NCBI RefSeq assembly: GCF_001282685.1
Contig: NZ_LN875034.1
Coordinates: 436,157-500,156 of the forward strand
Origin: Niameybacter massiliensis
GTDB taxonomy: Bacteria > Bacillota > Clostridia > Lachnospirales > Cellulosilyticaceae
Direction: 5' to 3'
Length of the DNA stretch: 64,000 bases
Translations under genes and position numbers: made by a program
The notes under the pieces: model-generated
Seen by the model: only the letters and a program-made list of their open reading frames with translations
Told to the model about the DNA's origin: nothing
The model's database searches: none
Part shown: positions 4,458 through 32,987 of the stretch, piece after piece
Layout: the number at the start of each line of letters is the position of its first letter
Position numbering within the stretch: position 1 is the first letter of the stretch

Positions 4458-7097
4458 ATGAAATATTTATTTAGAATAGAAGGCATTGATTGTGCTAACT
4501 GTGCGGCAAAAATTGAAAGAGCTTTAAATAAAGATGGGTTATTTAAAGAAGCTTATATTAACTTTATGCTTAAGAAAGTTGAAGTACATACTGAAGAAAA
4601 AGATTCTAAGATAATAGAAGAAAAGATCAGAAAAATTGCAAATAAGGTAGAGGATGGTGTAGTCATTACACCTTGGGATAACCAAACTCAAGAAGCTACT
4701 CAAGCTGTAGCTCAAAAACACTTATTTAAAATAGATGGTATTGATTGTGCTAATTGTGCAGCAAAAATTGAGCGCGCTTTAAATAAAGATGACTTCTTTA
4801 AAGAAGCCTATATTAATTTTATGCTTAAGAAGGTAGAAGTCCTTACAGAGGAAACTAACATTACTCTTATAGAAGAAAAACTTAAAAAGATTGCTAACAA
4901 GGTAGAAGATGGCGTAATTATTGAACCTTGGGATAATCAAGTTAGTTCAACTACATCATATCGCCATGAGCATGGAGACGGATGTGGGTGTGGTGAAGCA
5001 CATCATCACAGCCATAAGGATGAATGTGGATGCGGTGTAGATCATCATCACCAACATGAGAATGGATGTGGATGTGGTGACCATCATCATAAACAAGTAA
5101 CAAGAAAAAAAGTTGCTAAGAGAACAGCAACTAGAAAAGCAGTAGCTGGGAAAGCAACAGTTAGATCTATTGGTACAGTAGAGAATAATAGAATTGAAAA
5201 AGTAAAACAACCTAAGAATGAAGTTAGTCAGGCACCTAAGTCAGCTATACAAAAGTTTAAAGAGTACTTAAAAACTGAAGATGCAATGATGATGCGTATT
5301 ATTGTAGGTTTAGGTTTATTATTGTTTGGGGCAGTAAGTAAATTAGAAGTATTCACAATTATATCTTATGTTATTGTTGGCTATGACATTGTCTTAAAAG
5401 CTGTTAAAAATATTATTAAAGGAAAAGTATTTGATGAGAACTTCTTAATGACGATTGCTACATTAGCTGCATTTGTTATTGGTGAGTATAGCGAAGCCGT
5501 AGCGGTTATGCTTTTCTACCAAGTAGGGGAGTACTTCCAATCTAAAGCAGTAGCGAAGTCAAGAAAAGCTATTGAAGGGCTTATGGATATCAAACCTGAA
5601 TTTGCCCGTGTGAAGAGAAATGGTAATTGGGTCGTTGTAGCACCAGGTGAAGTAAGAATTGGTGATACTTTAGCAGTTAGACCAGGAGAGAAAATTCCTC
5701 TTGATGGTATTATTGTAAAAGGTAAAAGTAATTTGGACCATTCTGCATTAACAGGCGAATCTGTGCCTGTATTTATGGAAGAAGGTAGTGAAGTATTAAG
5801 CGGAAGTATTAACGTTGACCAACTTATTGAAATTAAAGTTACACAAACACTACAAAACTCTACAGTATCCAAAATTTTAGACTTAATAGAAAATGCAACA
5901 AGCAAAAAAGCACAAACAGAGCAATTTATTACTAAATTTGCAGCTGTATATACACCAGCAGTTGTTATAGCAGCAGCGCTTATTGCTATTATTCCTTCAT
6001 TAGTTACAGGTGATTGGAACCACTGGATTTATACAAGTATTGTCTTTTTAGTTATCTCTTGCCCATGTGCATTAGTTGTATCTATACCTCTTGGGTTCTT
6101 TGGAGGAATCGGTGCAGCTTCTAAATGTGGTGTGCTTATTAAAGGAAGTAACTATCTAGAAAAACTTACACAAATTGATACAGTTGTAATGGATAAAACA
6201 GGAACAATTACAAAAGGAAGCTTTGAAGTTATTGGTATCTTCCCAGCACGTAAAGGGTTAGAAGAAGACCTTATAAGATATGCTGTACAAATTGAAAGAA
6301 ACTCTAATCATCCGATAGCACGAGCTATTGCTAATTATAGAAGTGAGTTAGTGACAGAAGAGCTTACAGATTACACAGAAAAAGCAGGATACGGATTAAG
6401 TGCTACATTAAAAGGTAAGAAAGTTATTGCTGGTAATGAACGCTTCATGGAAATGAATCATGTTGAGTATAAGGTACCAAAAATGTTAGGAACAAGTGTA
6501 CACGTTGCAGTAGATGGTGAATATATTGGATGTCTTATTGTAGCTGACGTTGTAAAAGAAGAAAGTATGAAAGCTATTGAAGAACTTAAGAAACAAGGTA
6601 TTCAAAAGGTAATCATGCTTACAGGTGACAAAAAAGAAGTTGCTGAATATATTGGTGGGGAAGTTGGTGTAGACCAAGTCTATGCAGAGCTACTTCCACA
6701 AGATAAAGTACATCAAGTTGAAAAACTGATTGAAGAAGGCAATAAAGTAGCCTTCGTAGGTGACGGTATTAATGACGCACCTGTACTTGCATTAGCAGAT
6801 GTAGGGATTGCTATGGGTGGCATAGGTTCAGATGCAGCAGTAGAAGCAAGTGATATTGTGCTTATGCAAGATAACTTAATGCAAATTAATAAAGGAATTG
6901 AGATTGCTAAGTATACAAAACGTATTGTTAAACAAAATATTATCTTCGCACTGGGAACTAAATTCTTAGTAATGATTTTAGGTATATTAGGTTTTGCCAA
7001 TATGTGGCTTGCAGTATTTGCCGATGTAGGGGTATCTATTATTGCAATTTTAAATGCCATTCGTATTTTACCTAAACACGGGAAAATGGATAAATAA
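4458..7097 (+). CDS. Heavy-metal translocating P1B-type ATPase (Zn/Cd/Pb class)
   Basis: 879 aa, an ATP-driven metal exporter of the cell membrane. Two HMA domains lie at about 2-68 and 88-153, each with an IDCANCAAKIE site (Cys12/15 and Cys97/100). A linker at about 170-215 has three GCGCG-plus-His clusters. The catalytic core follows: TGES in the actuator, SCPCALV in the membrane (Cys535/537), DKTGT (Asp579), GDGINDAP, and ADVGVS in the last helix, whose Asp marks the Zn/Cd/Pb class. The two HMA copies are almost identical, so the duplication is recent. GGAGGCGG precedes the ATG. Confidence 0.93.
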   Translation: MKYLFRIEGIDCANCAAKIERALNKDGLFKEAYINFMLKKVEVHTEEKDSKIIEEKIRKIANKVEDGVVITPWDNQTQEATQAVAQKHLFKIDGIDCANCAAKIERALNKDDFFKEAYINFMLKKVEVLTEETNITLIEEKLKKIANKVEDGVIIEPWDNQVSSTTSYRHEHGDGCGCGEAHHHSHKDECGCGVDHHHQHENGCGCGDHHHKQVTRKKVAKRTATRKAVAGKATVRSIGTVENNRIEKVKQPKNEVSQAPKSAIQKFKEYLKTEDAMMMRIIVGLGLLLFGAVSKLEVFTIISYVIVGYDIVLKAVKNIIKGKVFDENFLMTIATLAAFVIGEYSEAVAVMLFYQVGEYFQSKAVAKSRKAIEGLMDIKPEFARVKRNGNWVVVAPGEVRIGDTLAVRPGEKIPLDGIIVKGKSNLDHSALTGESVPVFMEEGSEVLSGSINVDQLIEIKVTQTLQNSTVSKILDLIENATSKKAQTEQFITKFAAVYTPAVVIAAALIAIIPSLVTGDWNHWIYTSIVFLVISCPCALVVSIPLGFFGGIGAASKCGVLIKGSNYLEKLTQIDTVVMDKTGTITKGSFEVIGIFPARKGLEEDLIRYAVQIERNSNHPIARAIANYRSELVTEELTDYTEKAGYGLSATLKGKKVIAGNERFMEMNHVEYKVPKMLGTSVHVAVDGEYIGCLIVADVVKEESMKAIEELKKQGIQKVIMLTGDKKEVAEYIGGEVGVDQVYAELLPQDKVHQVEKLIEEGNKVAFVGDGINDAPVLALADVGIAMGGIGSDAAVEASDIVLMQDNLMQINKGIEIAKYTKRIVKQNIIFALGTKFLVMILGILGFANMWLAVFADVGVSIIAILNAIRILPKHGKMDK

Positions 7098-14542: not shown

Positions 14543-14775
14543 GCCCTTCCGTCCACGTTTATATACAGGACGAAAGGGCATTAAGTATCCATCTTCCGCG
14601 GTACCACCTGATTTGCCTATTAGGCCACTCGTTATACCTTTCCTTGAGTTAACGGGAGGATTCCGTCAGAGCCTACTTAGAAGTTCGGTCTGCCACTCCA
14701 AGGTGATTGTTCATATTTTCTATCGTATGGGCTCACACCGTCCCCACTCGCTTTAACGCCTTAAAAATACTACTT
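14543..14775 (-). promoter_or_regulatory. T-box riboswitch of ileS (specifier AUC)
   Basis: Read on the minus strand, the leader has the stem I elements AGCGAG and GGTGTGAGCCC, then GAAC-A-ATC-ACC, where ATC (14707-14705) is the expected isoleucine specifier. The T-box CAGGTGGTACCGCGGAAG (14610-14593) follows. The terminator GCCCTTTCGTCC/GGACGGAAGGGC (14579-14543) ends in TTTTTT. Uncharged tRNA-Ile binding should favour the antiterminator and switch ileS on. Confidence 0.95.
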
Positions 14776-14847
14776 TTCCTTTTCATAGTGTTTCAAAATT
14801 ATATGAATTTATTCCTATTATAAAAGGTAATAAGAAATTTGTAAAGA

Positions 14848-15000: not shown

Positions 15001-15293
15001 AGTTGTGTACTCTTCATTCTATAGATTTGATAACTGTATTGTATATCATTTGGCTGTACATAGCTAGGGCTGAGAGTAGATAAAAGGCTAAAATAAGAAG
15101 GTTATAAAGAAATAATAGAATATGGATTAAACTATAAGTAATGGAGAAAAAATGAATAAAACAACTTGTGTAGAATATATGGATGAGTACAAAAAAGTGA
15201 TATACTAAATAAAATACAAGTAGTGTTTATTTTAATACGCTATAGAGAATATAAGTTCAATAATAGTGTTAGGGAAAAGAGAGGGAAGAAAAA
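15001..15293. other. Intergenic region with no gene recognised
   Basis: 293 bp of AT-rich DNA between two divergent small genes. It should hold promoters for both. I see no convincing hairpin, repeat or further reading frame. Confidence 0.5.
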
Positions 15294-15458
15294 ATGAGTA
15301 CAAAAGTTATAGAGTTTAGTATGGTCACAGGATGGGAATGGTTTGTACAGCTATTAAGTTTAGTCTTATTAATTCCCATAGTGGTAGGTCCTATTATTCT
15401 TATTATATTAGGGATAAGAGCATTAAGTATTTATGTTAAGAAGAATCGTAAAGGATAG
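15294..15458 (+). CDS. 54-aa membrane protein resembling the N-terminus of ATP synthase subunit b
   Basis: A 54-aa frame with AGGGA about 8 bp before the ATG. Its first 20 residues, MSTKVIEFSMVTGWEWFVQL, match the start of AtpF at 32469 (MSSKIIEFSMQTGWEWFVQL) at 16 of 20 positions. The DNA over GWEWFVQ is also nearly identical. It then diverges into one long hydrophobic helix (about 18-42) and a basic tail, YVKKNRKG, with none of the b-subunit coiled coil. It looks like a duplicated AtpF membrane anchor turned into a separate small protein. Whether it joins or competes in Fo is unknown. Confidence 0.7.
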   Translation: MSTKVIEFSMVTGWEWFVQLLSLVLLIPIVVGPIILIILGIRALSIYVKKNRKG

Positions 15459-15572: not shown

Positions 15573-15839
15573 ATGAAGAAAATATTTGCAAAAAGAGCAC
15601 TTATTATAATGAGCATTATTTTTGCTATAGGACTAATGTTTGTATTTAGCTCAGTTAAAGCTGGAGAAAATGCTGGACACAAAGCGATGAAAAATAATGG
15701 TGGTTCAATGGATACAAATGCATATTATCGAGTAATAGATACAACAACACTTAACTATCAACTTACGGGGGGAGTTTTATCTTTAATAGGTGGATGTGGT
15801 GTATTAATAAGTGGATATGCGCTTTATAAAGAGATATAG
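15573..15839 (+). CDS. Hypothetical small membrane protein (88 aa)
   Basis: 88 aa. A basic start (MKKIFAKRA) leads into a hydrophobic helix at about 9-29. A polar, Asn/Gly-rich loop of about 30 residues follows, and a second helix at about 62-83 ends in YKEI. The first helix could be a signal anchor. No family is recognised. GGAAAGGAAA precedes the ATG and a terminator follows. It lies 114 bp after the AtpF-N-like gene in the same orientation and may be co-transcribed. Confidence 0.6.
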   Translation: MKKIFAKRALIIMSIIFAIGLMFVFSSVKAGENAGHKAMKNNGGSMDTNAYYRVIDTTTLNYQLTGGVLSLIGGCGVLISGYALYKEI

Positions 15840-30832: not shown

Positions 30833-32087
<1,255 letters not shown>

Positions 32088-32102
32088 GAACAAAAACATT
32101 AA

Positions 32103-32420
<318 letters not shown>

Positions 32421-32468: not shown

Positions 32469-32974
32469 TTGAGCTCAAAAATTATTGAATTTTCCATGCA
32501 AACAGGATGGGAATGGTTTGTGCAGCTTCTTGCTCTATTTCTAATTATTGCAATTCTAGCGAAGTTATTATTTAAACCAGTAAGTGAGTTTTTAGATAAA
32601 CGTCAAGCAATGATTGCAGCAGAAGTAAATGGTGCTACAAATGCTAAAAAAGATGCAGAAAGCCTTAAAAAAGATTACCAAAGTAAACTTGTTAATATCG
32701 AGGCAGAAGCTAGTGAAATATTAAAACAAGCAAGAGCAAAAGCATTAGTCCGTGAAGAAGAAATTATTAACGAGGCTAAAAAAGAAGCTGAAGCCATTAA
32801 AGAAAAAGCATTTAAAGATATCGAACTTGAAAAAGAACGTGTTCAATCTGAGATGAAACAAGAAATGATCGAAGTAGCTACACTTATGGCAAGTAAGTTT
32901 GTAGCTGAATCAATGAGTGCAGATAAACAAAATGCATTAGTTGATGATATGATTAAAGAGATGGGGGATGTACA

Positions 32975-32987
<13 letters not shown>
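32469..32987 (+). CDS. atpF: ATP synthase subunit b
   Basis: 172 aa from a TTG start behind AAAGGAGGG. One N-terminal membrane helix (about 15-37, after GWEWFVQL) is followed by a long charged coiled coil (about 45-150) that forms the peripheral stalk. The stem begins LFKPVSEFLDKRQ, typical for b. The last 13 bp overlap atpH. The first 20 residues recur in the small protein encoded at 15294. Confidence 0.93.

Follow-up and report, generated by a model that had tools for sequence, protein, structure and literature searches.

A 54-residue membrane protein of Niameybacter massiliensis with an N-terminus resembling ATP synthase subunit b, and its relatives in other Bacillota

The two b helices of the Bacillus PS3 ATP synthase pack on subunit a from different sides, with b Tyr13, the residue preceding Gln14, adjacent to Gly188 of subunit a; the equivalent E. 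coli b change, G9D, gives an enzyme that is assembled but non-functional (PMC6377231, excerpts). According to the same excerpts, the second b occupies the place of subunit 8 (A6L, ATP8). A bacterial b is regarded as the ancestor of subunit 8 (PMC4980432 and PMC5893901), and the b-derived N-terminus of subunit 8, which carries an MPQL motif (PMC4980432), lies on subunit a in the place of the second b (PMC6377231). Chloroplasts and some bacteria have two differing homologous b helices, b and b', per subunit a (PMC6377231). Other small proteins are connected with the enzyme. AtpTheta acts on FoF1 of cyanobacteria, where it prevents ATP hydrolysis; PMC9241938 does not present it as b-like. Mco10 ("subunit l") of yeast is a small, eukaryotic ATP synthase-associated protein (PMC9992712). 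No bacterial stalkless b was found in the accessible text of the open-licence literature on small proteins, subunit b and ATP synthase.

The window analysed here, 64,000 nucleotides of Niameybacter massiliensis (contig NZ_LN875034.1), contains a 54-aa frame whose N-terminus resembles that of AtpF, the subunit b of the same genome (Table 1). It is like subunit 8 in being a small one-helix protein with a short hydrophilic tail, in having an N-terminus related to the b of its own lineage (25-column tree, support 94/92) and in the placement that we predict for it. Unlike subunit 8, which is mitochondrial, fixed and replaces one b, it occurs beside a full b gene, is patchily distributed and is probably accessory; its tail comes from another small-protein family, and it starts with MSTKVIEF, without the MPQL motif. 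With AtpF (PF00430) it shares the N-terminal ~30 residues and the polar residue of the membrane segment, and unlike AtpF it has no coiled-coil stalk, no PF00430 match and no place in the atp operon. It would resemble the b/b' pair in providing a second, differing b-type helix. Unlike the 54-aa protein, b' keeps its stalk; Mco10 is not known to be b-derived.

Table 1. Positions in the window of the 54-aa ORF, its parts and the other features discussed.
Feature	Position	Strand	Basis or description
54-aa ORF (P0001), stalkless b-like membrane protein	15294..15458	+	translation, own-genome match, one predicted helix
b-like N-terminal 30 residues of the 54-aa ORF	15294..15383	+	16 identities to AtpF among residues 2-20
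C-terminal module GIRALSIYVKKNRKG of the 54-aa ORF, common to the wider tiny-protein family	15408..15455	+	alignment, nearest C-termini
Shine-Dalgarno-like AGAGGG, 8 nt 5' of the ATG of the 54-aa ORF	15280..15285	+	sequence
T-box leader ahead of the ileS-like gene	14563-14795	-	
88-aa ORF directly 3' of the 54-aa ORF	15573-15839	+	signal-like N-terminus, C-terminal hydrophobic stretch
AtpF, full-length Fo subunit b, in the atp operon, 17 kb from the 54-aa ORF	32469..32987	+	PF00430 2.1e-25

The 54-aa frame and its resemblance to AtpF

The frame translates as the sequence-only reading had given it and ends in KKNRKG, a short hydrophilic and basic C-terminus. AlphaFold2, run with an 11-sequence alignment, gives one continuous helix over residues 10-53 (mean pLDDT 88.9, pTM 0.49). 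The chain stops at residue 54, and the coiled-coil stalk that reaches F1 is absent. The prediction thus differs from the anchor plus second hydrophobic helix first proposed.

AtpF is the only PF00430 gene in this genome. Residues 2-20 of the two proteins are identical at 16 of 19 positions (17/20 with the start Met), in agreement with the 16 matches counted previously; the likeness had been confined to the first 20 residues and in fact reaches about residue 30. A chance likeness is excluded: the ORF scores 116 against AtpF, the runner-up among the 541 window ORFs of at least 25 aa (AtpF itself not counted) has 36, and the highest score in 2000 shuffles of the first 34 aa of the ORF is 48. When the protein was searched against its own genome, AtpF was the sole strong second match (E 1.7e-9, the next being 0.04). 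In Pfam the protein has no PF00430 match, only PFF1_TM at E 0.14, and no match to a solved b was obtained from the PDB sequences, which gave chance hits only.

The gene lies outside the atp operon, among other genes. Its neighbours, as read from translations, are a gene resembling nicotinate phosphoribosyltransferase and, on the other strand, the unit of the T-box and the ileS-like gene. The ~470 bases from 14822 to the start of the ORF showed no promoter-like site on the + strand, and no Pfam or NCBIfam family was found over cut-off for the 88-aa ORF that follows.

A recent duplication of atpF had been suggested by the DNA encoding GWEWFVQ, which is indeed near-identical, with 20/21 bases the same. 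The best local DNA alignment of the two genes, with 46/58 bases identical, starts at base 2 of the start codon; it does not extend upstream. The window pair uses the same codon at 7 of 15 identical degenerate residues, with 6.1 expected at saturation. Eight small-gene/atpF pairs from 8 genomes use the same codon at 36/91 such residues against about 38 expected from codon usage, an approximation in which the codon usage of the window was applied to every genome. The count is 10/17 against 6.9 for G113, and the other pairs either do not exceed expectation or lie within one standard deviation of it. Both recent duplication and gene conversion are rejected on the evidence of the saturated synonymous sites (8 pairs) and the absent upstream similarity (window pair). 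Because synonymous codons are saturated, the resemblance is held at the protein level: as judged from these genes, it consists of amino acids that were kept and not of DNA that was lately copied.

Two c-subunit genes, both matching PF00137, are found at 31548-32420 of the window. They encode a 94-aa protein and a 179-aa protein with two c-type hairpins, the first carrying AETSG and the second AQTTG (Gln for Glu), and look like components of a hybrid rotor of the Na+ type, as in Acetobacterium.

The C-terminal half and the tiny-protein family

Searches of relatives, order and class led to tiny one-helix membrane proteins ending like IKAL(D/K)IYI.KN. The segment GIRALSIYVKKN of the 54-aa protein aligns with them, and the C-terminal module that follows the single membrane helix is conserved. 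On this alignment, the C-terminal half is part of a widespread, undescribed family of tiny membrane proteins in Bacillota and no arbitrary replacement of the stalk. The family has two further members in the same genome (C11:145720 and C11:2157235) and 75 loci in GTDB contigs, many of them in Paenibacillus and Clostridium; with the 54-aa protein alone as query against the GTDB contigs, no match passed. Neither Pfam nor NCBIfam gave a family over cut-off for the 54-aa protein and the relatives tested, the best match being DUF4234 (E 0.0015, below its own cut-off) for a non-b-like relative. PHROGs gave weak matches only, among them that of a non-b-like relative with phrog_4546 (1.2e-4), a family of unknown function, and no family covering the 54-aa protein was found in Pfam, NCBIfam, PHROGs or the PDB.

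The N-termini of the family vary greatly. b-like members were found in 4/24 genomes of f1, the family of the window (including a weak one in G019), and in 7/22 genomes of family f22; as fractions these are biased because profiles A1 and A3 include b-like members, which leaves the ranking of own against other AtpFs unaffected. Conservation in related genomes, by which the sequence-only reading could be checked, is therefore seen: similar b-like small proteins recur in several related genera, and the free-standing Fo-b anchor without a stalk holds as a kind of protein. Its patchy distribution argues for a role of the 54-aa protein and its b-like relatives as accessory to the ATP synthase.

The same C-terminal module is carried by many proteins with other, non-b-like N-termini, which counts against docking as a b subunit, as do the patchy occurrence, the location outside the atp operon and the existence of b-like members lacking the module. 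The spread of the module over other N-termini, together with the location outside the operon, favours an explanation in which the b N-terminus was repeatedly taken up as a mere ready-made membrane-insertion segment, YidC being an example for insertion of this sort, while the C-terminal module acts on something else and the b likeness has no meaning for the ATP synthase. We consider this unlikely: the same subunit was copied in several genera, some b-like members (G068, G142 and G162) have no usual C-terminal module, and a segment used for insertion need not keep one helical face identical to that of its own AtpF (see below) at synonymous saturation.

A relic, or a frame without translation, is a very improbable explanation. 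It is short, with the + strand lacking a promoter-like site upstream; the 59 relatives searched include no genome of the same genus, and the relative in G013 is interrupted by an in-frame stop. Against this, the frame is intact and preceded by a Shine-Dalgarno-like site, its amino acids were kept at synonymous saturation, its C-terminal half has homologues among the small proteins of other genera, and the same build arises elsewhere. We infer that it is translated.

In other Clostridia, a like membrane segment (I.ALRKYI) was observed fused to an HTH regulator-like domain (L063, L071, L087 and L091), as if the module could anchor a transcription factor.

Agreement with the AtpF of the host

The small proteins of G002 and G013 ('..RVIGYDNSLVWDLLLQ..' and '..KVVGFDVQLIMDLIFQ..', respectively) have N-termini that resemble the AtpF of their own genus ('GRIIGFD.QLLWDL..Q') and are unlike the 'SSKIIEFSMQTGWEWFVQ' of the window. 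In f22, the G113 small protein RIIGFDKQLLIQTGIH pairs with its own AtpF RILGFDQQLLIQTGIH, and the G121 small protein PYIIFMTESTILQVVFHI with PYVIFFTEQTVIQVIAHI. We scored 49 members against the AtpFs of 25 genera, taking as the own-genus score the highest that any AtpF of the genus gave, a choice that favours genera with several AtpFs; G203, with no PF00430 match in its 86%-complete assembly, was scored with the AtpFs of its genus mates. The own-genus AtpF came first for 15/49 members and for 12/14 of those scoring at least 41, the exceptions being G149 (rank 2) and the second G113 protein (rank 3). Permuted genus labels reached the observed sum in 0/10000 cases, and 14/14 top members exceeded their 300 shuffles, a comparison with at most three AtpFs per own genus. 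Five members at 41-48 are individually weak, since foreign AtpF scores of non-b-like members reach 43.

In a narrower test, with 33 AtpFs and only the own genome counted as own, the own AtpF was first for 7/31 members, and G002 and G013 were beaten by another AtpF of their own genus. Seven members added later include two that are b-like, each fitting its own AtpF best of 7 (95 against 42 for the next in G162, 51 against 42 in G045); G032, with 47 for a foreign AtpF and 22 for its own, again marks single scores of 41-48 as weak. As a control, 29 members from Paenibacillus, Clostridium and other Bacillota did not exceed a score of 35 with their own AtpF, which came first in 1/29. This sample covered 40 of the 75 GTDB loci; 39 genomes were searched, 37 had an AtpF, 30 AtpF loci were taken, and L165 was without a usable frame. 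A b-like nature of the whole family is ruled out by this control and by the 35/49 members that score at most 39 against their own-genus AtpF. The N-terminal half thus tends to track AtpF lineage by lineage in several related genera, not in all.

Within the family of the window, the AtpF N-terminus itself switches from RIIGFD.QLLWDL to KIIEFS..T.WEW.WQ (L006, L007, L008 and L010-L012), a large change for a conserved interface.

We also built a tree from 25 ungapped columns of 11 small N-termini and 26 AtpFs, leaving out G019, G210, G353 and G478. The 54-aa protein is the sister of its own AtpF, with the support given above; two g49 small proteins join the AtpFs of their own genus (90/94), and the g40 small proteins, with one of g68, join the g40 AtpFs (94/98). 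Support is weak for the two g3 small proteins beside the family f1 AtpFs (66/25) and for the first G113 small protein near its own AtpF (51/43). The second G113 protein and that of G149 (f22) pair together (99/98), away from their own AtpFs, which counts against tracking. A single clade of all small N-termini was rejected (p-AU 0.0025, same 25 columns), as was a clade uniting the three small N-termini of family f1 in the set (p-AU 0.006).

The C-termini were compared for 11 of the 15 b-like names, those of G068, G142, G203 and G210 having no anchor motif. Over its C-terminal 24 residues the window protein is nearest to the proteins of G002, G019 and G013. An N-terminus like the own AtpF, joined to a C-terminus like that of relatives, implies that the N-terminus was replaced by the b of the host after divergence or that both co-evolved. 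For G353, G478, G121 and G170, the closest C-termini are those of non-b-like members, which suggests more than one origin of the b-like small proteins.

For 11 pairs, helix positions were numbered from the polar residue of the membrane segment (position 0; Gln19 in the 54-aa protein). Mean identity is 0.46 to the own AtpF, 0.25 to those of other genera and 0.35 between AtpFs across genera. Identity to the own AtpF is 11/11 at position 0, 10/11 at -4, 9/11 at -7 and 8/11 at -3, -11 and -12, and is concentrated on the helical face formed by -7, -4, -3 and 0, where AtpFs of different genera agree at 0.40, 0.28, 0.18 and 0.54, respectively. This helical spacing has p 0.005 over -9..+5, 0.023 over -9..+9 and 0.045 with one pair per genus; for own minus other, p is 0.045 and, over -9..+9, 0.15, which is not significant. 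The polar residue agrees, as Q, H or N, in 14/16 pairs, a count dependent on overall similarity; the misses are G182 and G019, where the ungapped method meets a 2-residue deletion. Gln19 aligns with Gln14 of the solved Bacillus-type b and, by the reported match range, with E. coli b residue 10, also a Gln.

Proposed docking on subunit a

We propose, with a probability of about 0.55, that the 54-aa protein represents a subunit-b helix without its stalk and docks on subunit a in the manner of mitochondrial subunit 8/A6L. The proposal is drawn from a likeness to the own AtpF far above chance, from amino acids kept despite synonymous saturation in 8 pairs, and from the own-genus ranking, the sisterhood in the tree and the likeness on one helical face. 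The first ~30 residues reproduce the membrane-spanning segment with which AtpF packs on subunit a. There is no cytoplasmic coiled coil to hold F1, and the chain ends in the short basic tail of the tiny-protein family. Such a helix would most likely dock on subunit a, free or within Fo, in one of the two b-helix grooves, and the packing of b in PS3 and the derivation of subunit 8 from b make a b groove plausible for a stalkless, basic-tailed helix. Once docked, it could act as an assembly aid that stabilises subunit a, or as a competitor of full-length b, so that fewer complete, F1-coupled enzymes would form; an effect on assembly or activity may thus go either way. The recurrence of the stalkless anchor is best explained, from the comparisons made here, by a predicted interaction with Fo.

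More tentatively, and with the odds against it, the order may repeatedly build an accessory "mini-b", the own Fo-b anchor on a tiny-protein chassis, which occupies one b site on subunit a and sets the number of F1-coupled ATP synthases. Its specificity would be kept by co-evolution with the subunit a of the host, as a regulatory bacterial parallel to the origin of subunit 8. In that case, bacterial FoF1 would include accessory subunits of a class modelled on a core subunit and adapted anew by each lineage, providing a testable bacterial model for the origin of subunit 8/A6L from b; the two b sites on subunit a would be separable targets, and anaerobes would have a natural control of ATP synthase assembly. 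Even without the mechanism, these are tiny proteins that tend to track a core enzyme subunit, of which no description was found in the accessible text of the open-licence literature.

The genomic setting of some relatives raises another explanation, namely a membrane effector on small mobile gene arrays (toxin-like, anti-host, or a decoy shielding b) that uses the b shape to reach or shield Fo. It agrees with the G019 relative, which belongs to an array of small genes separated by repeats, beside terminase genes, and with the several paralogues per genome, some of them neighbouring pairs. It is improbable, and more so than a mere insertion segment, given that the window copy stands among ordinary genes with no array seen, and that no relative was found in viral contigs, phages or plasmids, two of these record searches having used the window protein only. 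A phage or plasmid origin is rejected on the same negative searches.

In G019, the b-like gene (L235 4709-4867) adjoins an array (L235 4901-7002) in which small genes are spaced by 39-90 nt repeats, with copies at 4901, 5467, 5822, 6409 and 6936, between two terminase small-subunit genes; the array is cassette-like. Near the G113 b-like gene (L236 961-3551), a 35-nt repeat that has an inverted partner occurs four times between small genes, in an arrangement that is cassette-like as in G019. Finally, a DUF2500 protein is encoded at most about 2 kb from a tiny-family member both in the genome of the window and in G002 (L244 2848-3222 and L233 2642-3016), an assignment for which Pfam was run on the G002 copy only.
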